From contig NZ_CP036349.1 of the NCBI RefSeq assembly GCF_007753265.1, positions 5,206,862-5,270,861 of the forward strand: a stretch of DNA of 64,000 nucleotides, read 5' to 3'. Origin of the DNA: Botrimarina mediterranea (lineage in GTDB: Bacteria > Planctomycetota > Planctomycetia > Pirellulales > Lacipirellulaceae). The first letter of the stretch is position 1, and each line of letters begins with the position of its first letter. The notes beneath the pieces are model-generated. The model was not told where the DNA came from and did not search any database. It saw nothing but the letters and a program-made list of their open reading frames with translations. A program made the position numbers and the translations under genes. Below are positions 43,397-63,081 of this stretch, in pieces.

Positions 43397-46162
43397 TTAC
43401 GGCGCCGGCGTCTGCACAATCACCACCCAAGGCCCGCGCGGGTCTTCGCCCAACGTCTTAGGCGCCACCTCCGCGACAGCGCCGAGGTACTTCAACCCGG
43501 GTCGACCGAGGATGTCGTCGTACGAACCGAGGAAATTGCCGCGCGTCGCGCTGCGGCTATTGGCGGTCGCGGTCAGCAGACTCTCGCTGAGCCGCACCGG
43601 GTCGCTCGGCCGGCTGTAGGACGACAGCTCCCGATGGTGCAGCACCAGCCCTTTGCGAAGGTCGTCTTCGATGTCGTCGGCGCCGGTATCCGCCAGCAGG
43701 ATCTCGTGGCCGCCGGTCGCCTCGAGCTCGTTGAACTCGGCGAAATCGCCTAGCGACGACGAGATCGCCAGCACCCCGATCACCCGTTGCCGCCCGGCCT
43801 CTTGTGAGTCGCCGTAGATCGGCACGGAGAACGCCACTTTCAGATCACCCTTCGCGGTGGTGCTGCCATAGACCGCCGAGCGGTGCGGCTCGCGCAGCGG
43901 TTGGATGTCGTCCTCCTCGATGTCGTCCGGCAGGTTGGTCCCTTGGCCGTGGAAGTAGTCGCGGATGGCGTAACGCTGACCCATCGAGGCCGGCGAGTAC
44001 GGCGCCCGAGCGACTTGCAAGCCCTTGGCGTCGGTGACGAACCAGCTGCTAGAGCGGAAGCCGAGCTTCTCGTCGCCGCGGCTGCGTTGATCGACGATCC
44101 ATTGCTGAAGCGGGTGTTGGCGGTCCCCGAGCGCGGGCGCGTCGGGCGCGTTGGGCCCCTGCCCTGTCAGCCAGCCTTGCAGACGGGGGTCGTCCGCCGC
44201 CGACTGGAGGATCTGAATACGCCGGTCGATGGCGATCGAAAGCTCTCGCGCCGTCAGGCCGGCGACCGACTCGAGCTTCTCGGCCACCAGCGCCGGGTTC
44301 CCCGTCGATGGCAACAACCACACCGCCAGCACCGCCGCGCAGGCCGCCGCGGCCGCCATCGTCGCCACCAGCCAGCCGAACCGCTTGCCCGGCGTCGCCA
44401 ACGCCGCGCTGCCGATGAGGGTGCGGTTGAGGCGAGCGCTGGTTTCTTGCGTATCGATGCGGTCGGGATGTGTCTCGGCGCGGCTGAGGCGACGCTCCAC
44501 AGCGCCATCGACCTTGAGCCGCGTGACGCGTTCCGCCAGATGGGCGCCAACCGCAAACGGCGCGAGCGCCTCGGCCACTTCGAGCGGCGTCTGCGGGCGG
44601 TCCTTGGGGTCCTTAGCGAGCATCCGCTCGACCAGGGCGGTTAGCTCGCGCGGCGCGCCGCAGGCGGGCCGCAGCGGCGGGATCGGCGCGGTGGCGTGGG
44701 CGCGTTCGGGCTTGAGGTCGGACCTCGAGAACGGCGGCTCACCCATCAGCAGGCAGTAGAGCGTGCAGCCGAGGCTGTAGATGTCGGCCCGGATATCGAC
44801 CGACGTGGTGCGCCACTGCTCGGGGGGCATGTAGTAGGCCGTCCCCATTCCGCCGCGGTCGAAGCGGGTGAGCCGTTCCTCGTCGCCACCGACCAGCAGC
44901 GCGAGCCCCAGGTCCATCAGCTTCACCACCGCCAGCTTCCTCGCCGATGAGAGCGGGGCGCCAGAACTGCGGTAGCTGCCGCTCTCGCCGACTTGCAGGT
45001 GCGGGCTGCTGGTGAGCGCCACCATCAGGTTCGACGGCTTCACGTCGCGATGAACGAGGCCCTGCTCGTGCAGATGCTCGAGGCCCAGCGCCGCTTGCCG
45101 GGCGATCTCGCAGGCGTCGGCCACCGGCAGCGGCCCCTCGGCGTCGAGCAGCCGATCGACGCTGACGCCATCGACGTACTCCATCACGAGGTAGTGCTCG
45201 TAATCGTCGGGGCTCGACGAGTCGATCGCCACCACAAGGTTCGGGTGCTCCAGCGCCCCGGTCGCGCGGACCTCTTGGTAGAACCGCCGCACGACCGAGT
45301 CGCCGCCCGCTTCCACAAGGTCGGGGCGGATGATTTTCACGGCCCGCGGGCGGTCGAACTGCGCGTGGCGGGCCTTGTAGACGTTGCCCATGCCGCCGGC
45401 GCCGATCAGCTCCAAGAGCTCGTAATTGCCGATCCGCCGCTGCCGCACAGCGGTCGCCGAATCAGAGGGCGATCGCCGCCGGGTCGAAGCGCTCCCCGAC
45501 TGAGCCGCGTACTCGGTGAGGCCCATCGTCCGCGGCAGGACGCTCCATTCGCGCGGCGGCTGGTCGTTGAACTCTTCGTCCGGGCTGCGACGCGGGAGCG
45601 TTGGCGAACGGCCCGTGTAGAGCACTTCGTAGAGCTCCGCCGAGCCGATGCCGCGGAGTTCGCAGGCGCCGTGGGCGTGGAGCCAAACGCCGTCGAGCAC
45701 GCCGTCCTCGATCAGCGCCGCCGTGGTGCGCGAGACGAGGATCTGCCCGCCCTGGGCGTGGTCGGCGAGGCGCGAGGCGTAATCGACCGCCCGGCCGACG
45801 AAGTTGTCGGGGTCGTGCGGATCGGGCTGCGGCGCCCCGGCGTGCATGCCAATGCGGACCTCGGCGGTGGGGGCGTCTTCGCCGGCGTTGATCGGCGTTT
45901 CGTGGTGGGCACGCACCACGTCGATTGCCCAGCGCGTCGCCCGGGCTGTGTCCGGGAACACCAGGAAATGCCCATCGCCGGCGGTCGAGACGACACGCCC
46001 CTCCGCGGCCGCCAAGCCCGCCTCGATCAGCGCCCGATGCGGCTGCAACACCCGCTCGACGTAAGCCGCGTCACGCGCCGCCGCATCGCCGCCCGGCATC
46101 CGGCCCTTGAGCGCCACGGAGCCCACCAGGTCGGTGAACACAAACGTGGTGAGCTGGGCCAT
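43397..46162 (-). CDS. Class III nucleotide cyclase / Ser-Thr kinase / Cache fusion
   Basis: This 921-residue protein has a class III cyclase domain first (about 1-185): metal Asp in 'FVFTDLVGS', second Asp in 'VSTAGDGHFLVF', and 'VGRAVDYASRLA', where the usual VN is VD. A Hanks-type kinase follows (about 245-525) with 'IGAGGMGNVY', Lys in 'RAVKII', 'HRDVKPSNLMV', DLG in 'LMDLGLALL' and 'GTAYYMPPEQW'. A single membrane helix ('WLVATMAAAAACAAVLAVWLL', in part) leads to a C-terminal extracytoplasmic region that reads as a Cache-like sensor ('GYAxxY' type turns, 'MGQRYAIRDYFHGQG'). It may link an external signal to phosphorylation and possibly cAMP. Confidence 0.88.
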   Translation of the reverse strand: MAQLTTFVFTDLVGSVALKGRMPGGDAAARDAAYVERVLQPHRALIEAGLAAAEGRVVSTAGDGHFLVFPDTARATRWAIDVVRAHHETPINAGEDAPTAEVRIGMHAGAPQPDPHDPDNFVGRAVDYASRLADHAQGGQILVSRTTAALIEDGVLDGVWLHAHGACELRGIGSAELYEVLYTGRSPTLPRRSPDEEFNDQPPREWSVLPRTMGLTEYAAQSGSASTRRRSPSDSATAVRQRRIGNYELLELIGAGGMGNVYKARHAQFDRPRAVKIIRPDLVEAGGDSVVRRFYQEVRATGALEHPNLVVAIDSSSPDDYEHYLVMEYVDGVSVDRLLDAEGPLPVADACEIARQAALGLEHLHEQGLVHRDVKPSNLMVALTSSPHLQVGESGSYRSSGAPLSSARKLAVVKLMDLGLALLVGGDEERLTRFDRGGMGTAYYMPPEQWRTTSVDIRADIYSLGCTLYCLLMGEPPFSRSDLKPERAHATAPIPPLRPACGAPRELTALVERMLAKDPKDRPQTPLEVAEALAPFAVGAHLAERVTRLKVDGAVERRLSRAETHPDRIDTQETSARLNRTLIGSAALATPGKRFGWLVATMAAAAACAAVLAVWLLPSTGNPALVAEKLESVAGLTARELSIAIDRRIQILQSAADDPRLQGWLTGQGPNAPDAPALGDRQHPLQQWIVDQRSRGDEKLGFRSSSWFVTDAKGLQVARAPYSPASMGQRYAIRDYFHGQGTNLPDDIEEDDIQPLREPHRSAVYGSTTAKGDLKVAFSVPIYGDSQEAGRQRVIGVLAISSSLGDFAEFNELEATGGHEILLADTGADDIEDDLRKGLVLHHRELSSYSRPSDPVRLSESLLTATANSRSATRGNFLGSYDDILGRPGLKYLGAVAEVAPKTLGEDPRGPWVVIVQTPAP

Positions 46163-47383: not shown

Positions 47384-48367
47384 ATGACGAAGCCCCTCAC
47401 GCTGCTGATCGCTCTCGCCGCGTCGCTTGCCGCCGTGACGACGCAAGCCGGCACGATCGACCTACGGCTCGACGTCAACTACACCGGCGCCAACCCCTCC
47501 GCGGGCGGCACGTGGAAGCTGTTCGCGAAGACCGACGAGTTCGGCCTCTTCTCGCTCACCGCGCCGCTGTCGGGCATCAACGCCTCGGTCACCAACGAGC
47601 TACCACGCGGCCGCGTTAACGGCAGCGCCACCAACAACGCGGGCTTCTCGCTCGAAATCAATCGGGACCGCGGCTCCTACCGCCAGCTCACCTACAACCA
47701 ACAAATCACCCCCGCCGGCGCCGGCCAGCAAGGCGTTTTCTACGGCGTCGGCACGCTCGACAACGGCTCGCCCAACTTCCCCGGGCGCGTGGCAAACACC
47801 AATTTCCTCGGCCCCAACATCACATCGCTCACCAGCGTTCAAGACGTGCCGTGGGCGTTGGAAGACCCGCTATGGGCGACGGGCGTCACCGTCGCCAGCG
47901 GCTCCTTCGCCGCCGGCGCCACGCCCGCGTTCGCAACGGCAACGGGTGAACTTCAAGGTTCACTGCTCACGAGCATCGGCTCAATCTCCACACCGGGCGA
48001 TACGACGCTCGAGAACACGATCAACACTTCGGTCCGCACCAACCTGGGCTTCGGCGTTGCGACGGGCGATTACACCGGCGATGGCCGCGTCGACGCCGCG
48101 GACTACACGTTCTGGCGGGACAGGCTGAACCAAACCGTCCCCGCCCTCACCAGCGCCGATGGCAATGGCGACGGGGTCGTCAACGGGGCCGACTGGAACG
48201 TCTGGCGTAACAACTACGGGACGGTTTCGGCCCCGGCGGCCGCCGTTTCGATCCCCGAACCTGCTAGCGTCTTTTTGACGGGTTTTTCCTTACTGCTGCT
48301 CGCACGCCGTCGCAGAGCTAGCTGCGGGCGGCGGGGAAATGCGAAACTCTTTGGAGGGATTGCTTGA
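47384..48367 (+). CDS. PEP-CTERM protein with dockerin-type repeats
   Basis: The 327-residue secreted protein has a signal peptide ('LLIALAASLAAVTTQA'). A beta-rich domain of about 190 residues follows ('GTWKLFAKTDEFGLFSL'). Next are two dockerin-type calcium loops ('GDYTGDGRVDAADYTFWRDR' and 'DGNGDGVVNGADWNVWRNN'), then a PEP-CTERM signal 'IPEPASVFLTGFSLLLLARR' and a longer tail than usual ('RRRASCGRRGNAKLFGGIA'). In planctomycetes the pair probably marks surface or matrix proteins sorted by exosortase; no exosortase is in this window. It forms a local cluster with the next two genes. Confidence 0.85.
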   Translation: MTKPLTLLIALAASLAAVTTQAGTIDLRLDVNYTGANPSAGGTWKLFAKTDEFGLFSLTAPLSGINASVTNELPRGRVNGSATNNAGFSLEINRDRGSYRQLTYNQQITPAGAGQQGVFYGVGTLDNGSPNFPGRVANTNFLGPNITSLTSVQDVPWALEDPLWATGVTVASGSFAAGATPAFATATGELQGSLLTSIGSISTPGDTTLENTINTSVRTNLGFGVATGDYTGDGRVDAADYTFWRDRLNQTVPALTSADGNGDGVVNGADWNVWRNNYGTVSAPAAAVSIPEPASVFLTGFSLLLLARRRRASCGRRGNAKLFGGIA

Positions 48368-49997: not shown

Positions 49998-50633
49998 ATG
50001 CGTAAAATCCTTCTCGCTGCATTGTTCACTGTGACGGCTACGGTCGCCAACGCCGCCATCATCGGCGGCGGTCCCCAAGTTGTTCAACGCACTGTTGGCG
50101 GCGCCCCCGCCGGCACTGTTGTCAACGCCATCCAGATCAGCTTCGACGAGCAGCTTTTCGGTCAGCAGATGGTAGTTCAGCTGGATAGCGGTTCGATCTT
50201 CCAGCAGGCGACCTTCGGCGGAGAGACGGCGCCGAATGACGCGCTTATCGGCGCTTTCCCGGATGTCGAGGCCGATACGTTTGTCTCGATTGGTGGTCTC
50301 ACGCTGAATACGTCGTCCAGCACGCTAGTCGTCGGTGGTTCGACGGAACTCGGCATGAACGGCCCCAAGCAGATCGATACCGCTGGTATTAACATCGCCT
50401 GGGCTCCTTCTCCGGGCGTGGTGATCCCCAGCGGCACCGATTTCCCGATCGCTCAGGTTACCCTGTCTGGCGACGCCAACGGCAGCGTATTCCTGTTCAG
50501 CAACTCGGGCGGTACCGGGCAGATCTTTGAAGGATCTGTTCGCAACGGTGTCGTCAGCTTCATCCCCGAGCCCACCACCTGCGTGCTCGCCGGTCTGGCT
50601 CTGGTTGGCTTCGCGGCTCGCCGTCGCGTCTGA
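49998..50633 (+). CDS. PEP-CTERM protein, 211 residues
   Basis: It has a signal peptide ('ILLAALFTVTATVANAA'). A beta-rich domain of about 165 residues follows ('NAIQISFDEQLFGQQMVVQL' and 'GNGSVFLFSNSG'-like pattern), with no recognised family name. The C-terminal signal is 'FIPEPTTCVLAGLALVGFAA' with the Arg-rich end RRRV. It is followed 44 nt later by a strong terminator, so it ends its transcript. Confidence 0.82.
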   Translation: MRKILLAALFTVTATVANAAIIGGGPQVVQRTVGGAPAGTVVNAIQISFDEQLFGQQMVVQLDSGSIFQQATFGGETAPNDALIGAFPDVEADTFVSIGGLTLNTSSSTLVVGGSTELGMNGPKQIDTAGINIAWAPSPGVVIPSGTDFPIAQVTLSGDANGSVFLFSNSGGTGQIFEGSVRNGVVSFIPEPTTCVLAGLALVGFAARRRV

Positions 50634-50720: not shown

Positions 50721-50907
50721 GGCTTGCTGACTTTGCGGTCTGGGGGGACCTGCCGGGTGATGGGTGGTTCCGCGGGCTGGCGGGCGGGCGGGCGTCGATC
50801 CAGTCTTCGGGAGACCGTCCGATCGTAGCGGTGGCGCCGGCTGTGCTAGCGGGTGCTGCGTGGCGATCGAGGCGGGAATCAAGGGATCGATTCCTCTGCC
50901 ACCGCCG

Positions 50908-53900
50908 ATGGACCGCCACGCCAACCGCACCACTGACCGAGAGGCCGCCCGTCGTTGGACGCTGGTGGTGTTGGGCGTTGTCGCCATCGTGATGGCGGGC
51001 CGGGCCGTGTGGCTGGCGACTCACCCAAGAACGGCGACCGTGGTAGCCGGGGACTCGCACCGGGCCCCAACCCCCTCGGTTGTGGCGGACGCTATCGCCG
51101 AGCGGCCCCCGTGCCCGACGATCGACACGTGCCTCACGGTCGAGGAGTACGCGGCGATCGCGGGGCTCTGCCCCACGGCGCTGGACGAGCTCCCCGTGTC
51201 GATGCTGCCGCCCGCCGTCCGCGCCGCGACGGAAGCGTCGCCACCATCGCACAGCAAGACATCGCCCGGCGTTAGCTTGCCGAAGCTGACCCCGCCTCAC
51301 CAGCTGACGGCGGTTCGAGAGGGTGATCAGCCCGCCGGCCGACTCACCGGCATCCGCCTCGCCTCGCGCGGGACGGCGATGCCGCTGGGTGTTGTCGCGG
51401 AGCGCGTCGCCCAAACGGAAGCCGCGGAGGACGGCTGGCTCGTGTCACCCGACTCGTGGTTCGTTCCCGAAGACGGGGCGGCCGCGACTCCGGCAGAGGC
51501 CCCCGCGGCCCCAACCGTTGAGGCCCCACCCGCTGAGGCATTGATTGAGCCCACGACGGAGGCCTCACCGATTGAGCCCGCCCGTGAGGCGCCGCAAGGC
51601 GAAGCCGCCGACGCGGTGACCGACGCCGAGGAGCCGCCGGCATCGACCGCGCCAAGCACACCGTGGCCCGTCGATACCGCACCCAAGTCGCCTTATCCCG
51701 ACACGAGCGACCCGGCCACCGAGCGGCAGTTGCACAGCGGCTTCGATGCCGGCCCCGCCTTCGCCCCGCCCGGTGTCGTAACTCCCGATCCGACCGACTC
51801 AACAGCGGCGCCAGCGGTCTCGAACGATGCCGGTCTGACAGAACTAACGCCGACGACCGAGCCACGTCCCGAGATTCCGGCGGCGGAGCCAGCTGAGCAA
51901 CCGACGCTCCCCGAGCCCACCGAACCGGCGTGGACTGGGCGCTTCGACTCGGTGGTCCCGGAAGGGGCCGAGGACATCGAAGCGACGACCGATTCGATGG
52001 CGCCGCTCGACACGCCCGAGCCTCCGCCTTCGGAAGTGATCGAATCGCCGCAGCAGGAACGCGTCTTCGAGCCGCCAACACCGCAGCCCGAGCCGACGCC
52101 TGACGAGCCGGCAACGACGGAAGAAGCGCTCATCGCGCCGCAGCCCGTCGCGGAGCCCGTTGCACCTCAACCTGCGCCGATCGCTCCGGCGCCGCAGCCA
52201 ACCACATCGCCATCAACGACGCCGCCGAGCTCGCTGTTCACCCCGCCGAAGGCCGCGCACCCCGGCGGCGGCGCCCAGGCGGCGGCCGAGGCGAAACAGG
52301 CGGCCGGCGGCAAGTCGGCGGACGAGTCGCACCGCGAGCTGTTCGCCAAGCACAACTACCCGTCGGCCCTGCAATGCGCGGAGTGCCATCAGCGGATCTA
52401 CGACGAGTGGAGCGTCTCGAGCCACGCCTACGCGTATGTCTCGCCGATGTTCCATAAGTTCGAGCAGACGATCACCAACCTCAGCAACGGCACGGTCGGC
52501 CACTTCTGCACGCGCTGCCACTCGCCGGTCGCGGTGGCGATGAACGAGCCGCGGAGCATGCCGCTAGGGCACATGGCGATGTCGGCGCGCGAGGGCGTCA
52601 CGTGCATCGTCTGCCACCGGGTGAACCAGCGCTGGGGCAAGAGCAACGGGGAACGCCGCATCGAGCCGGGCGACATCTACGCGCCGGTCTACGGCGGCGT
52701 CGGTGGTGACGGCGTCGCGGAAGTGGTCGCGAAGGCTAAAGAGTTCAAGGTGAAGACATCGCCCGAAGACAAAGGCCCCGGCGTCGAGATGCACACCGAG
52801 GGTCGGTTCTTCGATCAGCTCACCGTCGCCGAGGCTTGCACGAGCTGCCACCAGGTGGCGGTCCACCCGGGCGTCAAGCTCGAGGTGGTGTGGGAGCAGT
52901 ACCGTGCGTCGCCGGCGTGCAAGAAGGGCGTCACCTGCCAAGAGTGCCACATGGGCCGCGTGCCGGGCCTGCCGGGCGGCTACAACATGGGCCCGATCGC
53001 GGAGATCAACGGCAAGGCCGTCAACAACCACCGCCGGCAATCGAGCCACGTCTTCTACGGACCGGGCTACTCGATCGCGCATCCCGGCGTCTTCCCCCAG
53101 CATAAGGACGCGCAGAAGTGGACCGTCGAAGAGTGGATGCACTACGACTGGCGGGCGGGCTGGGGGACGGATGAGTTCGAAGAGAAGATCGAAGAGCAAG
53201 AAGACAACGGTGTTGATACGGCGCAGTGGTTCCCGCCGGTTTGGGCCGATATCGACGACCGCTACGACGCGCGGGAGATCATCGAGGACAACCTCGAACG
53301 CCTGGCGACCAAGCGGCGCTACCGCGAGCTGGTGATGGAGAACGGCTCGAAGGTCGATGGCCCCTTCTTCCGCCAGCAGCCGACCGCCGGGCGTGACCTC
53401 GTGTTCGACTACGTCGTCACGAACATGAACGAGGGGCACAATCTGCCGACCGCGTCGCTCGGCGCGCAGCCGCAGTTGTGGGCGAATGTGGTGCTGATCG
53501 CCCCCGACGGGCGCCGGGTGTGGGAGTCGGGCTATACCGACTCGAACGGCGACCTCTGCGACATCCACTCGGTCGATGTCCGTGAAGGCCGCGCGCCGTT
53601 CGACAAGCAGTTGTTCAACTTGCAAACGATGTTCTTGATCACCGGCGCCACGGGAACCGACCGCGAGTTCTACCTGCCGGTGAACCTTGATTTCGACCAG
53701 GTCGCGCAGCTCCGCCCCGGCGCGCAGCCGATCAGCGTGCTCAACCACCCGCCGTTTATCCGCATGGAGAGCCGCTCGCTGGCGCCGCTGGGGCGCAAGC
53801 GGGTGAAGTACACGGTGCCGGCCGAGCTGCTGCGGCAGCCGGGGCGTTACCGTCTCAGCTTCCGCCTTCGGAACCGCACCGAGCCGATGTACTTTATGCG

Positions 53901-53991
53901 GCTCTGCGAATCGACGCCGGAAATGCTGCGAGCGATGACCGAGGGGACCATCGACATCCATCCGCAGAGCGTTGAATTCGACGTTTATTGA
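50908..53991 (+). CDS. Pentaheme c-type cytochrome with long Pro-rich spacer
   Basis: From ATG 50908 (the upstream frame from 50764 is not protein-like) it is 1027 residues. It has an N-terminal membrane anchor ('TLVVLGVVAIVMAGRAVWLA', about 17-36), then about 430 residues of Pro/Ala/Glu/Thr-rich spacer. A domain with five CxxCH motifs follows: CAECH, CTRCH, CIVCH, CTSCH, CQECH (about residues 488-675), similar in layout to cytochrome c554-type multiheme proteins. The last ~300 residues are beta-rich with no heme. It probably lies in the periplasm, bound to the membrane, and carries electrons. Confidence 0.85.
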   Translation: MDRHANRTTDREAARRWTLVVLGVVAIVMAGRAVWLATHPRTATVVAGDSHRAPTPSVVADAIAERPPCPTIDTCLTVEEYAAIAGLCPTALDELPVSMLPPAVRAATEASPPSHSKTSPGVSLPKLTPPHQLTAVREGDQPAGRLTGIRLASRGTAMPLGVVAERVAQTEAAEDGWLVSPDSWFVPEDGAAATPAEAPAAPTVEAPPAEALIEPTTEASPIEPAREAPQGEAADAVTDAEEPPASTAPSTPWPVDTAPKSPYPDTSDPATERQLHSGFDAGPAFAPPGVVTPDPTDSTAAPAVSNDAGLTELTPTTEPRPEIPAAEPAEQPTLPEPTEPAWTGRFDSVVPEGAEDIEATTDSMAPLDTPEPPPSEVIESPQQERVFEPPTPQPEPTPDEPATTEEALIAPQPVAEPVAPQPAPIAPAPQPTTSPSTTPPSSLFTPPKAAHPGGGAQAAAEAKQAAGGKSADESHRELFAKHNYPSALQCAECHQRIYDEWSVSSHAYAYVSPMFHKFEQTITNLSNGTVGHFCTRCHSPVAVAMNEPRSMPLGHMAMSAREGVTCIVCHRVNQRWGKSNGERRIEPGDIYAPVYGGVGGDGVAEVVAKAKEFKVKTSPEDKGPGVEMHTEGRFFDQLTVAEACTSCHQVAVHPGVKLEVVWEQYRASPACKKGVTCQECHMGRVPGLPGGYNMGPIAEINGKAVNNHRRQSSHVFYGPGYSIAHPGVFPQHKDAQKWTVEEWMHYDWRAGWGTDEFEEKIEEQEDNGVDTAQWFPPVWADIDDRYDAREIIEDNLERLATKRRYRELVMENGSKVDGPFFRQQPTAGRDLVFDYVVTNMNEGHNLPTASLGAQPQLWANVVLIAPDGRRVWESGYTDSNGDLCDIHSVDVREGRAPFDKQLFNLQTMFLITGATGTDREFYLPVNLDFDQVAQLRPGAQPISVLNHPPFIRMESRSLAPLGRKRVKYTVPAELLRQPGRYRLSFRLRNRTEPMYFMRLCESTPEMLRAMTEGTIDIHPQSVEFDVY

Positions 53992-54026
53992 ATCACGAAG
54001 GAAACCCTCACCAGAGACAAGGCTTT

Positions 54027-54113
54027 GTAGGAGGCGTCTCCAGACGCCGATGACGCGCACCACGCCGGGATTCGGCCAGGACACCGTAATCGGCGTCTGG
54101 AGACGCGTCCCAC
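54027..54113. repeat. Inverted repeat, 'GGAGGCGTCTCNAGACGCC' family, copy 2
   Basis: Left arm 'GTAGGAGGCGTCTCCAGACG' begins at 54027, right arm 'GGCGTCTGGAGACGCGTCCC' ends at 54113, around 'GATTCGGCC'. It lies in the spacer between the pentaheme cytochrome gene and the barrel gene. Confidence 0.85.
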
Positions 54114-54149
54114 AAGATTATGAACCACGGAAAACACCGATAAGCACGG

Positions 54150-55883
54150 ATGACGTTGGCGCTGCGAACCGCTGTGATGACGCTGGCCCTGGTTGGGGCT
54201 AGTGTTGGCGTACGCGCGCAGGACGCGTTGTTTGCTCCGCCGACTCGCATCGACGGCTCCCGGTCGAACGATGTTGTGAGTGGTGAACCGCTGCGGGTGG
54301 CTTGGTCTTGTGGGGTTTCTTCGCCGGGGCAGCCGGTGGTGGGGCGGTTTGGTTTGTTTCCTCCGCCGCCCGCCGAGGGGTCGGCGCCTTCGACGCATGG
54401 CTATGAGTGCGTGGCGCCTGTCGACGAGAAGAGCCCTCCTGACGACAAGAGCAAGGGAAAAAAAGAAGCTGCACTGCCGCCGGTCGAACAGCACCCGCAT
54501 TGCATCGATCCGCGAGCTTGCGAGACGGCGGTCGATACGGGCGACTTCAGCGCGGACGCCTTCTTCGCGCCGTACGACGGCTGCGGTGAGGTGGGCGTCT
54601 ACAACGGCAAGTACGAAGTCCCCACGCAAAGGCCGCTCGTCGAATGGGGCATGCCCTTCTACGGTCCCGGGCCGTGGGCGATCGGCAGCGAGGTGATCGG
54701 GCCCACGAACTTGGTCGTGCCGAAGTTCTACGTTTACGGCGACTACCGCGCCGGACTCGCGCAGAACGACCTCGTCAACGACGAGCAGACGGTGCTTGCC
54801 CACCGACTCAACCTCGAGCTCGACTACTGGTTCACCTCGACCGAGCGCGTTCACGGCTTCCTCGGGCCGTTCCAGAAAGACGCCCGGTTCATGCGTGTCG
54901 TCGATGGCGAGTACATCGAAGAGCTCGACTTCTTCCAGGCCGAGACCGACACGCTGTTCTTCGAGGGAGACCTCGGGCAGATGCTCGGCGGCATCGAGGG
55001 GCGCTACGCGTCGTTCGATATGCCGATAACCTTCGGTCTCGTGCCGCTGGTGTTCCAAAACGGCATCTGGATGCAGGACGCGATCGTCGGCGGCGCCGTG
55101 ACGCTGCCGGCGAAGAACTCGCCGCTCTTCGACTGGTCGAACTTCGACGTCACGTTCTTCGGCGGCATCGACCGCATTTCGTCGGGCGCCTTCGGCTTCG
55201 ACGAAGACGCCGCGGCCCTCGTCGGCGCGACGACGTTCATCGAAGCGCGGGGTGGTTACTTCGAACTCGGCTATGGCTTTGTTGAGGATCAAGAGAACGG
55301 CGGCCGCAGCTACCACAACCTCGGCGTCAGCTACACCCGGCGTTACGCGAACCTCGTGTCGAACTCGGTCCGCGCGATCGTCAACGCCGGTCAAGACCCG
55401 CACGACGGCCAGCGGACCGCGGATGGCGTGCTGCTGCTGATCGAGAACACCTTCCTCACGAAGAACCCCTACAACGTGATGCCGTACTTCAACGTCTTCG
55501 CCGGCTTCGATACGCCGCAACCGCTCGCGCGGGCTGGGGCGTTTGGCGGCGTCTTGTTCAACACGGGCATCCTGTTCCAGAGCGACTTGCTCACCGGCTA
55601 CCCCACGCTCGACGCCACCGGCAACAACACGTACGGCGCCGCCATCGGTGTGGACCTGCTATCGCCGGCGTTCGATCAACAGCTGATCCTCGAGATGGCG
55701 GCCTTGAAGACCATGTCGATCGCAAGCAACCGCGTCGCGGCGGGCGACCAAGTCGGCGTCGGGGCCCGCTGGCAGAAGAAGCTCTCCACCGCCACGCTCA
55801 TCCGCGCCGACGCAATGGTCGGCATGCTCGATAACTCCGACGACATCAGCGGCGTGCGGTGCGAGTACCGGTGGAAGTTCTGA
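54150..55883 (+). CDS. Predicted outer-membrane beta-barrel protein
   Basis: The 577-residue protein has a signal peptide ('AVMTLALVGASVGVRAQD'), then a low-complexity Pro/Lys part to about residue 130. A barrel follows, rich in amphipathic strands and aromatic ends ('FYVYGDYRAGLAQND', 'LNLELDYWFTSTERVHGF', 'GGYFELGYGFVEDQ'). It ends 'GVRCEYRWKF', a C-terminal Phe typical of barrel insertion. No porin family can be named. It follows the pentaheme cytochrome and faces the decaheme cytochrome gene, so an electron-conduit role is possible. Confidence 0.72.
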   Translation: MTLALRTAVMTLALVGASVGVRAQDALFAPPTRIDGSRSNDVVSGEPLRVAWSCGVSSPGQPVVGRFGLFPPPPAEGSAPSTHGYECVAPVDEKSPPDDKSKGKKEAALPPVEQHPHCIDPRACETAVDTGDFSADAFFAPYDGCGEVGVYNGKYEVPTQRPLVEWGMPFYGPGPWAIGSEVIGPTNLVVPKFYVYGDYRAGLAQNDLVNDEQTVLAHRLNLELDYWFTSTERVHGFLGPFQKDARFMRVVDGEYIEELDFFQAETDTLFFEGDLGQMLGGIEGRYASFDMPITFGLVPLVFQNGIWMQDAIVGGAVTLPAKNSPLFDWSNFDVTFFGGIDRISSGAFGFDEDAAALVGATTFIEARGGYFELGYGFVEDQENGGRSYHNLGVSYTRRYANLVSNSVRAIVNAGQDPHDGQRTADGVLLLIENTFLTKNPYNVMPYFNVFAGFDTPQPLARAGAFGGVLFNTGILFQSDLLTGYPTLDATGNNTYGAAIGVDLLSPAFDQQLILEMAALKTMSIASNRVAAGDQVGVGARWQKKLSTATLIRADAMVGMLDNSDDISGVRCEYRWKF

Positions 55884-55891
55884 AAGCAGCA

Positions 55892-55977
55892 AATGACCAA
55901 TGACCAAGCCTCAATGACCAATGAGATGCTGCCGCACCATTGCGGTTTCTAGCTCAACTCATTGGTCATTGGGGCTT
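55892..55977. repeat. Inverted repeat, 'AATGACCAAGCCCCAATGACCAATG' family, copy 3
   Basis: Arms 55906-55925 and 55958-55977 match with one mismatch; an extra half-unit lies at 55892-55905. It lies between convergent genes, and its right arm encodes the last residues and stop of the decaheme cytochrome. Confidence 0.88.
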
Positions 55978-57933
55978 AATGGCTTGCACGTGATAGTTGT
56001 GACACTTCGTGCACGAGTCGCCCGCCGCGTGGGGCTGGTGGCATTGGACGCAGCTCGACTTGGAGATCGCCGCGAACTCGCTGGCGGGGCGTGAAGCGTC
56101 GTAGCTGGCGTAGGCGCTGCGGGGGTCGGCGGTCGAATCGATGCGGTGACAATGCGTGCAGTTGGCGAGTTCGGGTTGCACGAGGTGCGGACGGTGCGAG
56201 AACTTCGTGAAGCCGCGGGGCTCGGTGAGGCGGTCGCGACCACGCCAGTTGATCGCGAGGCCGGTCGATGTCTGGTCGATGCTATGGCACTCGAAACACA
56301 TGCCCGGCGCGCCGGGGCGACGGAACTCGGCAAGGCAGGCGTCGCGGATGTCGGCGTGCTCCGCAGGGAGCGCGACGATCGCGTCGAGCCACGCCCGCAC
56401 GAGTGGATCGTCGTGGCCCGTTGGGCGATACAGCAGCGCGAGGCGATCGTCGTCCACCAACCAGCCGCCGCCGGTGCGACGGTCTTCGATCGCGTCGAAC
56501 TGCTCCGGCGGCGCCGCGTCGCCGAGCCAAGTGGCTTGGATGCGGTCGATGAGCTCGACGGGAAGGCGACCAACATAGTCGGCGTCGGGCTTTGCGTCGT
56601 CGCCGACGAGCGACCGTAGGCGGTAGGCGATAGCGCCGTGCCCTTCTTCTTGGGTCTCGGCAAGCAACCGCTTGAGGGCGCCGACGAGAGTCGCGGCGGC
56701 GGCGACTTGGTCCTCGTCATCGGGATCGACATCGAAGAACGAGAAGTCGGCGCCAAGCGTCTTCATGGCTTTAGTAGCTGCGGGATCGGCGGCGAGCAAC
56801 AGCTTGGTGAAGGCCGGCAGGTCGCCATCGAAGTCACCGGTGGCGCGCTCGGGCCATTTTCCGGCGTCGATGGCCTCGGTGTCGATCGTCGGCAGCGAAA
56901 GCATCGCGAGGCCGGCGCCGAAGCTGTTGTTGATGTCGGCGTCGTGGCACTCGGCGCAGCTGGCGTGGTAGTCTACCCGCAGGGTGAGGTCGCCCGCCGC
57001 GTCCTCTAAGTGGCACGAACGGCAGTCGAACTTCTGATTCGCCTTGGTGAAGTGCTGCTCGCTGTGCGATGCGTGGTTGAACGCGATACGGGTCCGCCGC
57101 GCGACGGGCCAGGCGCCGAAGTCGGGGTGGTCGGTCGCAAAGCTGTGGAACTGCTCGGCGTGGCAGGCTTGGCAACGGGCGTCGGTGATGGTCTTCAGAT
57201 CATGCTTGGCGCCGTGGTGCTCTTGATGACACGCCGCGCAGGCGAGTGGCTCACTCGCCGACATGCCATGCGCCGGCGTCGCAACGGACGGCAGCGAAAA
57301 GCTGGCCGCCGAAACCAACGCCACTCGCGGCTTAGCGGCGCGCGGCAATGCATCGGTCGGTAGACCATGCGCCAGCAACGGCTCACGCCCCGCCGTCGCC
57401 ATCTCCCTATGGCACTCAAGGCACAACGCCGACTGCGTCACGCCGCCCGCCTTACCGCTGCCGTGCCACGCCATCGCAAACCACGCTGTGGGCCCTTCAT
57501 TCGCGCCGGGATGGCACGTCGCGCAACGGTTGGACCATTCCGCGCGAGCGATCACTTGAGCGTGGTGCGATGACAAGGCGCCCGGCGCCAACAGATCGTT
57601 TCGCAGGCTGCCGCCTAACAACATCAGCACCGCGCCCACCGTGAAGAGCGCCGCCCCACGCAACCAGCGGCCGCGGATCGCGCGGAGCGATCGCTTTGGT
57701 TTGCAATGTTTGACTTGGCAACAAGCGCCGTCGGGGCTTGGGCCGCCTTCGCAGGGACCGCCGCGGCCATCGCTACGGTTGCAGAGCCAGCGGTCGCCGT
57801 CACGGATCGGCGTGCACTCGCCCAGCGTGGGGCAACGGCCACCGCAACTGGGGCCTACGGCGCACGGCGTGCCTGCGGACTCGAGCCCGCATTGCCAGAG
57901 GTCGTGCGGTCGGTCGTACTGCTTGCGTTTCAC
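55966..57933 (-). CDS. Decaheme c-type cytochrome with Cys-rich N-terminus
   Basis: The start is GTG at 57933, which overlaps the upstream TGA by 4 nt (GTGA). The 655-residue protein has about 70 cytoplasmic residues with 10 cysteines ('CGLESAGTPCAVGPSCGGRC' and on), a membrane helix ('ALFTVGAVLMLLGGSL') and a periplasmic part with ten CxxCH motifs: CATCH, CLECH, CAACH, CQACH, CRSCH, CAECH, CFECH, CTHCH, CVQCH, CTKCH. The c-heme spacing recalls the cytochrome c3/c7 superfamily. An electron-transfer role is clear; the partner is unknown. The last codons come from a repeat. Confidence 0.87.
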   Translation of the reverse strand: MKRKQYDRPHDLWQCGLESAGTPCAVGPSCGGRCPTLGECTPIRDGDRWLCNRSDGRGGPCEGGPSPDGACCQVKHCKPKRSLRAIRGRWLRGAALFTVGAVLMLLGGSLRNDLLAPGALSSHHAQVIARAEWSNRCATCHPGANEGPTAWFAMAWHGSGKAGGVTQSALCLECHREMATAGREPLLAHGLPTDALPRAAKPRVALVSAASFSLPSVATPAHGMSASEPLACAACHQEHHGAKHDLKTITDARCQACHAEQFHSFATDHPDFGAWPVARRTRIAFNHASHSEQHFTKANQKFDCRSCHLEDAAGDLTLRVDYHASCAECHDADINNSFGAGLAMLSLPTIDTEAIDAGKWPERATGDFDGDLPAFTKLLLAADPAATKAMKTLGADFSFFDVDPDDEDQVAAAATLVGALKRLLAETQEEGHGAIAYRLRSLVGDDAKPDADYVGRLPVELIDRIQATWLGDAAPPEQFDAIEDRRTGGGWLVDDDRLALLYRPTGHDDPLVRAWLDAIVALPAEHADIRDACLAEFRRPGAPGMCFECHSIDQTSTGLAINWRGRDRLTEPRGFTKFSHRPHLVQPELANCTHCHRIDSTADPRSAYASYDASRPASEFAAISKSSCVQCHQPHAAGDSCTKCHNYHVQAIKPQ

Positions 57934-58715
57934 GGCGTCGGCCCTCCGCGAAACGCCAGCGCCATCACGCCATGGCCGGCGCCGAGCAGCAGCAACGCCC
58001 AAGTCAGGCTGATGTGGGCGAAGAGCCACGCCTTCAGCACGCCTTGTTTGGCGGCATGGAAGTCGAGGTCGTCTTTCCGCCGTACCAGACCGAACAGCTT
58101 CTCTGCGGCCGAACGTTCGGGTTCCGTGAGGTAGCGATCGACCGCGTTCAACTCATTGAAGAGCCGCTTGCGTGCTTTCGTCGTCGGACGCAACGTGTAA
58201 CGCAGCGCCCGTGGGCGACGGAAGAAGCCGTGCAGTCGGTCGGCGTAGAAGTCGGCAAGCGTCGTCGCGCCCGTGGCGTGGACGGCTTCGAGCACCACGG
58301 CACGCGCATCGCCTTGCACAACGCTGCGGAGCCGCGGGATACGCTCGAAGATGAACTGCTCGCCGGTGCGGGCCAGCTGCTTGGGGATAGTGCGAGTCAG
58401 GTAGAAGCCGATGACGCCGCTGACGAAGGCCCCGGCATAGAGCATGGCGAGCGTCCCTTCGACGGCGCCATTGGGCCAACGGCCGCCGATATGCAAGTAG
58501 AACAAGACGCTGGAGGCGAACGCCACTACGAGGTGGGCCTGCAACCACGCCTTGCTTGTCCCCAGCGGAAAGCCGGGGAGCTTCTTGCGGAGTTGGTACG
58601 CCGCCAGGAAGACGACAGCGCCGTACATCGCGTAACCCGTCGCGTAGGCCGTTCGGGCCAGCGAGGCGTTCAACTGCGACGCCCACAGCGCGCACGCTAT
58701 GGCGACGCCGATCAC
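57930..58715 (-). CDS. b-type membrane cytochrome with two His pairs
   Basis: The 261-residue protein has about five hydrophobic segments. Four His could bind two b hemes: H61 and H75 in 'AHLVVAFASSVLFYLHIG', and H234 and H248 in 'AHISLTWALLLLGAGHG'. Both pairs are 14 residues apart, the spacing of cytochrome b in bc complexes. A polar domain (about 105-225) separates them, so the layout is not a classical cytochrome b fold. The start is GTG 58715; it lies between the CNB-ferredoxin gene and the decaheme gene and overlaps the latter by 4 nt. Confidence 0.72.
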   Translation of the reverse strand: MIGVAIACALWASQLNASLARTAYATGYAMYGAVVFLAAYQLRKKLPGFPLGTSKAWLQAHLVVAFASSVLFYLHIGGRWPNGAVEGTLAMLYAGAFVSGVIGFYLTRTIPKQLARTGEQFIFERIPRLRSVVQGDARAVVLEAVHATGATTLADFYADRLHGFFRRPRALRYTLRPTTKARKRLFNELNAVDRYLTEPERSAAEKLFGLVRRKDDLDFHAAKQGVLKAWLFAHISLTWALLLLGAGHGVMALAFRGGPTP

Positions 58716-58758: not shown

Positions 58759-60450
58759 TTAATGTTGGCTCCAAGCGGCGAGCGTCGTCGGCGTCGTCAG
58801 GTTGACGCGGACCAGGGCGTCGTGCGGGCAGGCGTGCTGACACGCCGGGCCGGTGGGGACGTCGACGCACAGGTCGCACTTCGTCGCACGCAGCAGCGGC
58901 TGACCGGTCGCTTCGTCGATCACGATAGCGCCAGCCGGCTCGCGGATCTCGACCATCTGGATCGCGCTATATGGGCAACTGTTGGCGCAGGTCCCGCAAC
59001 CGACGCACGTTCCGTCGTTGATCCGCACAGCGCCGGTCTCTTCGTCACGATGGATGGCGCCGGTGGGGCAGCCGATCATGCAGACCGGATCGACGCAGTG
59101 CATGCACGCCTGTGCGAACTGCAACTGATCGTGGAGCAGGCCCTCGCGCGTGAAACGCGGGTTGCCGTCGTGCGTGGCGGCGCAGGCGCGGAGACAGTCG
59201 TCGCAGCGCGTGCAGCGGTCGAGGTCGATGACCATCGACTGCGTGCCGTTCACGAGCCGGCGATCGACGAGATAATCGAGCGTCCGTGAAGAGGGGGCGC
59301 CGGGCGAAGGTTGATAGACTGAGTCTTCATGCCGTGATCGCTCTCGCCAGCGGCTACGCTGCGATTCGGAGATCGTCGGCGCCACTTCGGTCAGGAATAC
59401 GTCGGGCGGAATCGCGATCGCGTCGAGCCGCCCCACGGCGCGCAAGGAGCGACGCCAGATCGCCGGCTCGTTCCGTTCGTCGGCGAGGCAAAGCTCCTCG
59501 GCGCCAAGCGTGCGGCCTTTACCCAGGTAAGCAATCGTACGGTGCGCCTCGCCCAGCGCGCTGGTGAGCCGTCCCACTCCGCCGCGCACCAGGAGTACGG
59601 ATTCAACCGGCGTCCCTTCCTCGACAACGATCGGTTCGCGACGGAGGCGTTCGATTGGATCCGACGTCGCGTCGAGCTTTGCCGTCGCCGACCAGTCGAA
59701 CGAGCCGAACGACACGAACGACACGGAGTCCTTGACCCGCGCCAACGCGGCCGCGTCGAGATTCGCCAGCAGCGGCGTATTACGCAAATGACCATCGAGA
59801 TGGTTCTGATAGAAGAGCAAGTCGATGTGCTGCCGCAACGCCGGGGTGCATTGCATCAAGTCCCGCAGACCCTGCCAGCGAATCTCTAGGAGAACGCAGT
59901 CGGTCTCGGCAATGATTGTCGCCGTGTGCGGCGACCGGGTGATGGCCGCTTGCTCACCGAACAGCTCGCCCGGCCCGAGTGCGACGGCGCGAGTCGCTTC
60001 GATCACAGCCGGCAGGTCTTGCACGAACACCCCGACGCCGGGGTGCGTCGGCGATACGGACACCGAATCGATCGCACGAACTTCCGGCGGGCCCTGACGC
60101 TTAAGCAGTCGGGCGACGGCGCGGGCCATTGCGGCGCCACGGCGCATCGGCGTGCGGCCGAGCGTCGTCGGAGGAAGGCTTTCGAGCGTGGCTCGAACCA
60201 GCCCATCGAGCACGAGGAGCGCCGACGAACCGTAGTCCCCTTCCCGGACAACGATCTCGCCAGGCTTGAATGGCACAACGCGCGTGTCGTTGCGCAGAAT
60301 CTCACGTAACGGCGTCGAGCGAGGGAACGCCGCAGGGTCCATCGCCACGAATGGCGGCACGCCCAAGAGCCGATCGACCATGCGCGTTGACATGGCCGCG
60401 TCTAGCGGCTTGTCCCAGCGCTCCGGGCGTGGTCGGGCGACTTCGAGCAT
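58759..60450 (-). CDS. Cyclic-nucleotide-binding domain fused to four-cluster ferredoxin
   Basis: From ATG 60450 (a later upstream start at 60537 is not favoured) it is 563 residues. Two CNB-like domains occupy about 50-190 ('FKPGEIVVREGDYGSSALLV' and, after an insertion, 'ALGPGELFGEQAAITRSPHTAT') and about 205-360 ('VVEEGTPVESVLLVRGGVGR'). The C-terminal ~150 residues hold 16 Cys in four sets (CTRCDDCLRAC, CMHC...CMIGC, CVGCGTCANSC, CDLC...CQHAC), as in DmsB/NrfC. It is cytoplasmic by its lack of signal peptide. A role as a cAMP- or cGMP-gated electron carrier is inferred. Confidence 0.85.
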   Translation of the reverse strand: MLEVARPRPERWDKPLDAAMSTRMVDRLLGVPPFVAMDPAAFPRSTPLREILRNDTRVVPFKPGEIVVREGDYGSSALLVLDGLVRATLESLPPTTLGRTPMRRGAAMARAVARLLKRQGPPEVRAIDSVSVSPTHPGVGVFVQDLPAVIEATRAVALGPGELFGEQAAITRSPHTATIIAETDCVLLEIRWQGLRDLMQCTPALRQHIDLLFYQNHLDGHLRNTPLLANLDAAALARVKDSVSFVSFGSFDWSATAKLDATSDPIERLRREPIVVEEGTPVESVLLVRGGVGRLTSALGEAHRTIAYLGKGRTLGAEELCLADERNEPAIWRRSLRAVGRLDAIAIPPDVFLTEVAPTISESQRSRWRERSRHEDSVYQPSPGAPSSRTLDYLVDRRLVNGTQSMVIDLDRCTRCDDCLRACAATHDGNPRFTREGLLHDQLQFAQACMHCVDPVCMIGCPTGAIHRDEETGAVRINDGTCVGCGTCANSCPYSAIQMVEIREPAGAIVIDEATGQPLLRATKCDLCVDVPTGPACQHACPHDALVRVNLTTPTTLAAWSQH

Positions 60451-60500
60451 GAGGAGTGGGTTAGGACGGTAGGTGGGTAGTACGATAGGGAAGGTCTGTT

Positions 60501-60590
60501 GTGGGAGGCGTCTCCCGACGCCGATTACGGTGTCCATACCGAATCGGCGTGGTGCGCGTAATCGGCGTCTGGAGACGCCTCCTACAGGTT
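60501..60590. repeat. Inverted repeat, 'GGAGGCGTCTCNAGACGCC' family, copy 3
   Basis: Left 'GTGGGAGGCGTCTCCCGACG' from 60501 and right 'GGCGTCTGGAGACGCCTCCT' to about 60590 pair imperfectly. It lies between the tetraheme cytochrome gene and the CNB-ferredoxin gene (both minus). Confidence 0.85.
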
Positions 60591-60593
60591 CGA

Positions 60594-61598
60594 TTACTTG
60601 TATTTGTTCGGTGGTGGCAGCAGGTCGTCGATTGCGGCGAGGCGGGCGCCGTCGGCGCGTTCGGCGTACGCGTAGGCGGCGTCGCTGATGGCGTCGGCGG
60701 CCTTGTTGATCTCGGCGGCGTTGCCGAGTTTGAGTTCGAGTGTCGATACGGCGTCGAGCGCGGGCTGGATCATTGGGTCATCGAGACGCCGTTGTACTTC
60801 CCACAGCGCTTGCTTGCGCGCGGCGGCGCGGGCGGCGGCGGTGCGGGCGAACGTTCCGCTGCCCGTGGCTTTGCTGACGGCGCGGAGGCTGTATTCGAGG
60901 TCGGTCATCAGGCCGACAACGTGCATCACGCGCACGCGTGGTAAGGCGCTGGGCTCGTTCGTCGTTCCGTTCGAACGAACGAAGTTGTGCCGAACCATGC
61001 CTTGTGACCAGGCGACGAGTTCGAAGTCGGTGCTGCCGGCAGGGTGGCCGCCCACGTCGACAAGCTGCTCGTCGGGCGTCGTGTGGCAGTCGAGGCACTG
61101 CCGGGCGATCAGGTAGAGATTCGAGGGGTTGTTCATCCCGGCCGAGATGCTCGCCAACCGTCGCTGTTGGCGGGCGGTGGGCGATTCCGTCTCACGTGTC
61201 ACGCCGGGCCCATACTCGGCGTGTAGTTGCACCCAGTCCGTCGCCGGGCCGTGGCACGACTCACAAGACACGCCCGAGTCGATCCGCACGCGGCCGCGCT
61301 CTTCGCGCTCGGTGTAGTGGCAGCGGACACAGGTCTCGTTGCGTTTGACGCTGCGGATGCCGAGCCGGTCGGCGATCGCCTTGGCCTCGGGCTTGCGATG
61401 GAGCGTATCGATCGTTTGGGCGTGCGGCGTACGCAGCCATTGATCGACCTCGGCCGCATGGCACTTTTTGCACCCATCGGCGCCGATGACTTTAGCCGGA
61501 TCGAAGTGCTGCTCCTGTGGCGGCTGCGCGATCGCCGCCGTGGCGCACGCCACGACGATCGTGAGGAACAACGCCGCTTGTAAGCGTGTAAGTTTCAC
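60594..61598 (-). CDS. Tetraheme c-type cytochrome, c554-like
   Basis: From GTG 61598, which overlaps the upstream TGA by 4 nt, it is 334 residues. A signal peptide ('LQAALFLTIVVACATAAIAQ') leads to a domain with four CxxCH motifs: CKKCH, CVRCH, CESCH and CLDCH. The block 'GADGCKKCHAAEVDQWLRTP' with 'HA' following is the usual start of cytochrome c554-type domains. The C-terminal ~150 residues lack hemes. A periplasmic electron carrier is likely. It is translated with the reductase upstream. Confidence 0.87.
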   Translation of the reverse strand: MKLTRLQAALFLTIVVACATAAIAQPPQEQHFDPAKVIGADGCKKCHAAEVDQWLRTPHAQTIDTLHRKPEAKAIADRLGIRSVKRNETCVRCHYTEREERGRVRIDSGVSCESCHGPATDWVQLHAEYGPGVTRETESPTARQQRRLASISAGMNNPSNLYLIARQCLDCHTTPDEQLVDVGGHPAGSTDFELVAWSQGMVRHNFVRSNGTTNEPSALPRVRVMHVVGLMTDLEYSLRAVSKATGSGTFARTAAARAAARKQALWEVQRRLDDPMIQPALDAVSTLELKLGNAAEINKAADAISDAAYAYAERADGARLAAIDDLLPPPNKYK

Positions 61599-62896
61599 GG
61601 GTTCCTTCCCCCCTTTGCCGGAACGGCGTCGGCGTCGAGCACGACGGGTCCTTCGGGCAGGCTGATGCACGCCAGGCATTCGCCTGAGGTGAGCACGACG
61701 CCCGGCTTGCGGAGTGCGTTGACCTTGCCGTCGAGGATGCGAACTCGGCACGCGCCGCAGTTGCCCGCGCGGCAACCGGCGCCGATCGGCACGCCCGCGG
61801 CCTCGGCCATTTCGAGCAGCGAGCCCTTGGCGCCGTCCCAGACAATTGGCGTCGTCCCTGCACCGAAGCAAACCGGACTACCGAGCGCCTTCTCGATTAG
61901 CGAGGCGCCCGACTTCGTCGTGACGCTGGCGGGGCCAAACGCCTCGAAGTGGATGCTGTCCTCCGGGACGCCCCAGTCGAGCAGTTCCGGAACAAGCGTT
62001 TGCATCATGCGCCCGGGTCCGCAGAGGTAGTAGTCGAAGTTGTTCGAGGGGAGCTCACGTCGCAGCAGCTCGAGCGAGACATGGCCGCGCGAGTGATAAT
62101 GGACGCCGAGGCGATCGTTCTCTGAGGGCTTCGAATAGGCGTAATGCGGCCGCACGAGTGGATTGGCCTCGGCGATTGCGTTGACGGCGTCGGCGAAGAG
62201 ATGCGAGGCGCCGTCGCGGAATCCGAAGAAGGCGTAGGTCGGCGTGTTGATGCGCGCGTGCTGCACCGCTTCTAGCATCGACACCAGCGGCGTCACGCCT
62301 ACGCCGGCGCCGATCAGTACGGCGGGCCGGGGCTCGCCGGGGTTGTAGAAAAACGCGCCCTTGGGCGCCTCGCACTCGATCGTCATGCCGACGCGCGCGT
62401 GGCGGTGCAGCCAACAGCTCGCGACCCCGGCGGGCACGTCGGGTGGGTTCGGCGGGGCGTCCTGACGGCGGATCGAGAGGCGGTAGTATTCGGGCCGCGG
62501 TCGGTCCGAGAGCGAGTAGCAACGCACCACTTCGTTGCCGCCCGGCCCCGCCGGAAGCGAGAGCGTCAGGTACTGACCCGGGATGAAACGCGGCAGCGGC
62601 CGGGCGTCGGGGCTGGTGAGGAACAGCGACTTCACGTCGGCAGTTTCATCAACGACTGCCGAGACGCGCAGCGGGCGGCGGCCGTCCCAAGCGAGCTTGC
62701 GTGCGAGCCGCGCGCGAGCCGACTCGGCGGCGGCGTGGACCTCGATGCGAAACGCCTCCGCGTCGGCGTCGCTTTGCAATCGCCGCTGGAGGCGCGAACG
62801 CCATACTCCCGCCGCGCCAATCGCCGCTTGCCCCGCGACGACGAGGCACATCGCGGCGCCGCTGTAGAACAGCAGCGGGTCGCCGGGTGAAGGCAT
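61595..62896 (-). CDS. FAD/NAD(P)H reductase with plant-type [2Fe-2S] domain
   Basis: The 433-residue protein has an N-terminal hydrophobic segment ('GAAMCLVVAGQAAIGAAGVW'). The FAD part holds 'RCYSLSDRP' (the RxYS motif, about 126-134) and the NAD(P) part holds 'GAGVGVTPLVSMLEA' and 'YLCGPGRMMQTLV' (about 205-300). A C-terminal [2Fe-2S] domain has 'CRAGNCGACR' and a last Cys in 'GECLACI', the plant ferredoxin pattern. It resembles HCR/Hmp-type NAD(P)H electron donors. It starts the minus-strand redox series and is coupled by GTGA to the tetraheme gene. Confidence 0.9.
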   Translation of the reverse strand: MPSPGDPLLFYSGAAMCLVVAGQAAIGAAGVWRSRLQRRLQSDADAEAFRIEVHAAAESARARLARKLAWDGRRPLRVSAVVDETADVKSLFLTSPDARPLPRFIPGQYLTLSLPAGPGGNEVVRCYSLSDRPRPEYYRLSIRRQDAPPNPPDVPAGVASCWLHRHARVGMTIECEAPKGAFFYNPGEPRPAVLIGAGVGVTPLVSMLEAVQHARINTPTYAFFGFRDGASHLFADAVNAIAEANPLVRPHYAYSKPSENDRLGVHYHSRGHVSLELLRRELPSNNFDYYLCGPGRMMQTLVPELLDWGVPEDSIHFEAFGPASVTTKSGASLIEKALGSPVCFGAGTTPIVWDGAKGSLLEMAEAAGVPIGAGCRAGNCGACRVRILDGKVNALRKPGVVLTSGECLACISLPEGPVVLDADAVPAKGGRNP

Positions 62897-62983
62897 AGAC
62901 GCAATGGGGCGGGACGGAAGACGGACAGGGAGCGTCGTCTTTTAGCACCCGAAGCGGTTTGCCAGCAACACGAGCAAGACAAA

Positions 62984-63059
62984 GGCGAGCCGGCGACGTT
63001 AGTCGTCGGTGTGAAGCGGGTACTCAGGTTCCACCGACGAATAATGTCGCCGGCTCGCC
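62984..63059. repeat. Inverted repeat, 'GGCGAGCCGGCGA' family
   Basis: Left arm from 62984 ('GGCGAGCCGGCGACGTTAGT') and right arm to 63059 ('GTCGCCGGCTCGCC') pair, with a second paired part 'CGTCGGTG'/'CACCGACG'. It lies between the edge gene and the reductase gene. Confidence 0.85.
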
Positions 63060-63081
63060 AGATCGCTAGCTTCGCTAGCGA

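Follow-up and report, generated by a model that had tools for sequence, protein, structure and literature searches.

Gating of electron flow by cAMP or cGMP at the first of two cyclic-nucleotide-binding (CNB) domains, fused in one chain to a four-cluster ferredoxin, is the best reading for the protein family described here when all steps are taken together, and the sequence comparisons lean towards it. One member is encoded in the window, the whole stretch of 64,000 nucleotides of Botrimarina mediterranea DNA that was analysed. In this organism the cyclic-nucleotide gating has probably been lost or altered, as judged from its sequence. The gene and the parts of its product are as follows.

58759-60450, minus strand: CNB-CNB-ferredoxin gene, 563 aa; the frame is open to 60537
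59797-60408, minus strand: first CNB domain (CNB1) including an insertion, residues about 15-218, matched by structure to the MloK1 CNB domain
59989-60186, minus strand: insertion in CNB1, residues about 89-154, from the structure model
59908-59970, minus strand: phosphate-binding cassette of CNB1, residues 161-181; Glu166 is kept and the Arg175 position is His (59926-59928)
59311-59823, minus strand: second CNB domain (CNB2) with a degenerate cassette, residues about 210-380, from a structure match
58762-59238, minus strand: ferredoxin part, residues about 405-563, with 16 Cys in four clusters of four

Orthologue comparison revealed that the Met at 60450 is the start shared with the nearest orthologues. 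The stretch 60500-60586, which overlaps the long upstream frame, is part of a dispersed genomic repeat. The 563 aa product starting at this Met is thus the likely protein. The upstream stretch 60451-60537 was rejected as a part of it, since orthologues lack it and it overlaps the repeat. That the fusion results from an artefact of the frame or the assembly was ruled out, as 23 of the 59 relative genomes, every one of them from the window's family group, have a full-length orthologue. Three of these genomes were assigned by identical sequence to Lacipirellula limnantheis, Adhaeretor mobilis and Bythopirellula polymerisocia.

In Pfam searches the window protein matched PF00027 (E 2.6e-21) and several Fer4 families (PF13247, E 3e-10). 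A structure model was built with 57 sequences (mean pLDDT 85.7, pTM 0.80). Model residues 18-217 aligned with the MloK1 CNB domain (3cl1; Z 15.4, 130 residues aligned, rmsd 2.5, 25% identity) and residues 210-380 with CNB-B of PKG II (5bv6; Z 17.4, 143 aligned, rmsd 2.7, 16% identity), which indicates two CNB folds in the protein. A preliminary description of the window had noticed two CNB-like regions in one chain with a ferredoxin and had proposed structure prediction as a check; the model shows both regions as CNB folds, and Pfam, model and orthologues agree on the fusion. The gene end given there, 60450, coincides with the Met shared by the orthologues, and the insertion, put there at about 60 residues, measures about 66. 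Its blocks at 101-140 have pLDDT 52-75, and in the family alignment Glu 123 is invariant and Arg 125 mostly conserved. The fold of both CNB domains is shared with the MloK1 channel and with PKA/PKG regulatory subunits, and the FGE...PR[ST]AT signature of these proteins is found in CNB1 of most of the family. Unlike them, the window protein has a four-cluster ferredoxin as its output, a 66-residue insertion, a degenerate CNB2 cassette and a CNB1 that lacks the Arg. A short RPxRWDxP motif is also present at the N-terminus (60400-60450, minus strand), in which Pro9, Arg11 and Trp12 are invariant in 57 sequences.

The C-terminal ferredoxin with 16 Cys was borne out, all 16 being invariant in 57 aligned sequences. 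In the set of 116 sequences, 13 of the Cys positions are invariant and the other three are Cys in 114. The comparison with DmsB/NrfC ferredoxins made in the preliminary description stands for the cysteine pattern, which together with sequence similarity is common to the window protein and DmsB/NrfC/HydN-type four-cluster ferredoxins. It does not extend to location. No hydrophobic or signal segment was found in a scan of the protein sequence, so that the protein is most likely cytoplasmic. Unlike in those ferredoxins, the domain is fused to CNB domains, and its partners are not a molybdopterin reductase but a b-type membrane protein and c-type cytochromes encoded by genes of an envelope-spanning conduit. 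The curated family cut-offs were missed by a wide margin (DmsB 58.7 bits vs 214.1; NrfC 45.4 vs 377.6). The partner genes are listed below.

61595-62896, minus strand: RED, a FAD/NAD(P) reductase with a 2Fe-2S domain at the C-terminus and a single hydrophobic segment at the N-terminus, encoded upstream of the tetraheme cytochrome
60594-61871, minus strand: C554, a tetraheme c-type cytochrome with 4 CXXCH; the true start is probably near 61600
57930-58715, minus strand: IMP, an inner-membrane protein with two WX3HX13H motifs and SGXXG, from a motif and segment scan
55966-58029, minus strand: CYT, with ten CXXCH, one hydrophobic segment and a Cys-rich N-terminus; the likely start is GTG 57933
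54150-55883, plus strand: POR, an outer-membrane beta-barrel protein, from structure model, Foldseek and HMM
50764-53991, plus strand: MHC, a five-CXXCH cytochrome with a long N-terminal region; the start is uncertain

IMP directly follows the CNB-ferredoxin gene in the window, and profiles grown from the window's neighbours gave the recurring order RED, C554, CNB-ferredoxin, IMP, CYT. There are 55 loci, the window's among them, that have 7.5 kb or more of sequence on either side; IMP and CYT were each found there 54 times, RED 47 and C554 46 times; a POR homologue lay within 10 kb in 24 of these 55 and MHC in 22. Within reach in the Rhodopirellula-Stieleria-Rubripirellula-Roseimaritima group are only the ferredoxin, IMP and CYT. 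The W and both H of the two WX3HX13H motifs are kept in 83/83 IMP sequences, as are both Gly of SGXXG, the first position of which is Ser in 78/83 and Thr in 5/83. Hydrophobic segments of IMP number five in the averaged alignment and three on the window sequence alone at a stricter cut. The POR model is a beta barrel (mean pLDDT 74), with MOMP, AlgE and OprD-type barrels as best Foldseek matches.

In the main text of He et al. (2017, PMC5566968), PCC4 Subgroup II consists of a porin, cytochromes with 4, 5 and 10 hemes, IMP, an Fe-S gene and a redox gene. The pfam13247 Fe-S gene lies there upstream of IMP and the redox gene upstream of the tetraheme cytochrome; the IMP has WX3HX13H twice, SGXXG and five transmembrane helices, and Planctomycetes are among the named holders. 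Electrons are drawn inward, for Fe(II) oxidation, and extracellular electron transfer by the cluster is proposed in that text, not proved. The window cluster agrees with this type in content and order: porin, 4-, 5- and 10-CXXCH cytochromes, IMP motifs, PF13247 gene and redox gene. The window CNB-ferredoxin is the Fe-S subunit, most likely cytoplasmic, of a cluster of this type. The cluster type is thus already described, and the CNB annotation of such proteins is known as well.

From these components an electron path can be proposed. Electrons would pass, in one direction or the other, between NAD(P)H and the cell surface by way of RED (FAD, 2Fe-2S), the CNB-ferredoxin, IMP, CYT/C554, and POR with MHC. 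RED and the CNB-ferredoxin would be cytoplasmic, IMP would use two b hemes to pass electrons across the inner membrane, and CYT, C554, MHC and POR would lead onward to the surface. Two remote relatives fit this path. The Sphingobium plasmid protein WP_231568103.1 (L030), annotated as 'cyclic nucleotide-binding domain-containing protein', is a CNB-CNB-ferredoxin followed, as in the window, by genes for an IMP-like protein and a ten-CXXCH cytochrome. It differs from the window protein in having an N-terminal pyridine nucleotide oxidoreductase in the same chain and canonical cassettes in both CNB domains. That a flavoprotein using NAD(P)H is fused into this chain speaks for NAD(P)H as the partner in electron exchange. 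In L027 (8398-10890) an N-terminal 2Fe-2S/4Fe-4S segment (Fer2_4, Fer4_Nqo3) precedes the CNB-CNB-ferredoxin, and IMP, decaheme and tetraheme cytochrome genes are present at the locus in a different order. The Cys-rich segment of CYT (57690-57933, minus strand), several Cys of which are kept in about 55 of 71 sequences, lies before the hydrophobic segment and is therefore probably cytoplasmic; electrons may enter the cytochrome there.

A scan of named genomes gave at least 547 relatives, of which the best-scoring 80 were kept, so that near relatives are over-represented among these 80 loci. They belong to Planctomycetota, Verrucomicrobiota and Alphaproteobacteria and to MAGs labelled Myxococcales, Nitrospinae, SAR324, Poribacteria and Mariprofundus. 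Of 294 genomes drawn evenly from the phylum, 37 had a match at 1e-60, and some of these matches are partial. Cultured planctomycetes are among the holders.

The phosphate-binding cassette of CNB1 was compared across the family for the conserved Glu and Arg. The window cassette reads GELFGEQAAITRSPHTAT, with the Glu present and His where Arg is expected. A sequencing error at the His codon was ruled out, as the same His occurs in three genomes. The Glu is kept in all 116 distinct family sequences and the Arg in 111, window included; the five replacements are His in the window, L124 (G001), L126 (G003) and L065, and Gln in L076. Residue 172, three positions before the cassette Arg, is also an Arg, without exception in 57 sequences. 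The cassette set had been brought from 107 rows to 101 by removal of six duplicates, and to 97 by removal of the four remote relatives L027-L030, which all carry the Arg. Both Glu and Arg are kept in 20/20 genomes of a later set (19 of them new; L169 repeats L089), which had been found with a profile that contains the cassette columns. A canonical cassette is absent from CNB2 in the window, and the family pattern of CNB2 lacks the Glu-Arg pair throughout the family proper; in the remote relatives L028, L029 and L030 the cassettes of both CNB domains are canonical.

These patterns bear on what CNB1 binds. In most of the family it would bind cAMP or cGMP, and CNB2, its fold kept, would serve for coupling or docking. 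CNB1, and perhaps CNB2, could instead have a different small molecule such as a nucleoside as its ligand, by analogy with the trypanosome PKA regulatory subunits that do not depend on cAMP. Those subunits are among the structural matches (6hyq, 6h4g), and the canonical Arg is missing from the window's CNB1 and from CNB2. Most of the family, however, has retained the canonical cyclic-phosphate cassette in CNB1, and the linked genes encode nucleotide cyclases; this alternative is improbable in our view.

A total of 36 genomes were searched with PF00211. A class III cyclase was found within 7 kb (3.5-6.2 kb) of the CNB-ferredoxin gene in 13 of 22 window-family genomes against 0.117 expected from random placement, a count of related genomes, hence no independent test, made without G021 (contig of 4.3 kb) and without kinase-fused matches. 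In these 13 genomes the cyclase gene is divergent and upstream of RED. A divergent cyclase occupies the same place in 28 of 80 family loci with enough upstream sequence, and the later genomes have a linked cyclase in 8/20. Among 54 loci with 8 kb on both sides, some cyclase lies within 10 kb in 23 and none in 31. A Verrucomicrobia subdivision-3-like clade has a CHASE2-type cyclase downstream (scanned in L080; at the same place in L084, L090 and L107). The nearby cyclase is of CHASE2 type in L104 and of 7TMR-DISM type in L064; with at least 68 cyclase matches in that genome, the latter linkage may be due to chance. Two cyclase matches also lie within about 10 kb of the remote relative in G056.

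Both metal-binding Asp are kept in all aligned linked cyclases except L082, a weak match (2.5e-13) whose catalytic stretch did not align, and the Asn/Arg pair is present in most. Asp stands at the position of the usual base-recognising Lys, which leaves the product of these enzymes unsure. No class I cyclase match was obtained in 7 genomes; each of the 7 has one CYTH protein, so a class IV cyclase may be a source of cyclic nucleotide.

The retention of the cassette and the linkage have to be weighed against a purely structural role, in which both CNB domains dock the ferredoxin to its membrane partners and bind no ligand. The CNB2 cassette that is degenerate throughout the family proper, the His in the window and two sisters, the replacements in L065 and L076, and the many loci without a nearby cyclase would all agree with such a role. 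It does not explain why Glu and Arg are so nearly universal in CNB1, the halves of which have a mean conservation of only 0.62-0.67 in the family alignment, nor a cyclase linkage far above random placement, and we regard it as unlikely. The preliminary description had itself named absence of the cassette residues in homologues as the sign of a merely structural domain. Since Glu and Arg are kept across the family and cyclases are linked, this does not apply to CNB1; it does apply to CNB2, and to the Arg in the window and two sister species. Its proposal of a second messenger gating electron flow thus gains support in the family and loses it in the window protein, with His for Arg, no linked cyclase and a degenerate CNB2.

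Cyclic-nucleotide gating at CNB1 would then proceed as follows. The nucleotide would be made in many lineages by the cyclase encoded beside the cluster, and the bound state of CNB1 would switch how well the ferredoxin passes electrons. A stronger form of this mechanism is a tentative possibility: the nucleotide from the neighbouring cyclase would directly, at the post-translational level, open or close the whole conduit that leads from NAD(P)H across both membranes, by means of the ferredoxin switch, cyclases with varied sensors having been placed beside it in several phyla, and the window lineage would be a natural loss of the switch with the conduit intact. CNB domains act as switches of both assembly and conformation in protein kinases. 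The nucleotide might thus control assembly, location or stability of the conduit, not electron flow itself. Flow and assembly are not separated by the present evidence and nothing specific speaks against such control, but with a redox domain fused directly to the CNB domains an effect on electron transfer is the simpler interpretation, and we give assembly control only a slight chance.

The window's own lineage differs from its near relatives at the cyclase locus.

62897-63081, no strand: gap between RED and the next gene; a divergent cyclase gene is at the same place in the sister genome G002

In a quick tree with SH-aLRT support only, the window, G001 and G003 form one clade (support 100), all with His and without a linked cyclase, and the sister G002 of the same genus has the Arg and a cyclase between the same flanking genes (support 96). 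The window clade, with its changed cassette Arg and lost linked cyclase, counts as one event. With both changes, the conduit of this lineage would probably be constitutive or answer another signal. Over the second half of CNB1 the window is 60% identical to G002 and 62% to G007, and G002 is 75% identical to G007; for the ferredoxin part the same pairs give 75, 72 and 74%. These values fit a ligand site under relaxed constraint in a conduit that has been retained. A general rule that cyclase loss goes with Arg loss was not borne out: cyclase matches number 2 and 13 in the genomes of the Arg-less L065 (His) and L076 (Gln), and none was obtained at 1e-6 in the genome of L053, which has the Arg. 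Six family genomes without a linked cyclase keep the Arg (G005, G008, G013, G018, G020, G029), and each has at least one other cyclase.

The gene at 43397-46162 (minus strand) encodes a Ser/Thr protein kinase whose N-terminal domain resembles class III cyclases. This domain had E 1.2e-4 in one search and 7.9e-4, below the cut-off, in another; both metal Asp are present and the catalytic Asn is Asp. It is an uncertain candidate for the window's missing cyclase. The kinase-fused domain is the only PF00211 match in G000 and G003, and G001 has one more, weak match (7.9e-6). Such matches recur in family genomes, often 12-31 kb from the ferredoxin gene, the kinase-fused class being set by frame length and profile start, with a Pfam check on the window's one only. 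The only other PF00027 protein of the window genome was considered as a second cAMP receptor and rejected: it is a Crp-like regulator, and the canonical Arg-Ser/Thr-Ala is absent from its cassette region. The same is true of the other PF00027 proteins that were read in G000, G001 and G003.

Control of outer-membrane electron conduits is usually described at the level of gene expression, for example by cAMP-CRP in Shewanella. If gating is correct, the conduit's own redox subunit would respond to a second messenger and so give respiration or electron uptake a fast valve. In the open-licence full texts that were searched, no report was found of the CNB1 cassette conservation, the linked cyclases or their loss in the window lineage. 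The linked cyclase seen here beside CNB-ferredoxin genes is unmentioned in the section of PMC5566968 that describes this cluster type, and 'cyclic nucleotide' does not occur in the main text of the paper. The size of the family, its spread over Planctomycetota, Verrucomicrobiota, Proteobacteria and others, and its cultured planctomycetes make the idea testable, and the window clade is a ready negative control, with the same conduit, His for Arg and no linked cyclase.

Two PEP-CTERM-type proteins are encoded beside the cluster, at 47384-48367 and 49998-50633 (both plus strand); the former has a dockerin-like domain and a PEP-CTERM match that falls short of the cut-off. Between C554 and the ferredoxin gene (60500-60586), and once more between MHC and POR (54026-54114), lies a palindromic repeat of about 86-89 bases with a predicted hairpin of -62.8 kcal/mol. 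Its arm is present in 208 copies in the genome (94 forward, 114 reverse, at most 2 mismatches) vs 0 for the reversed control.
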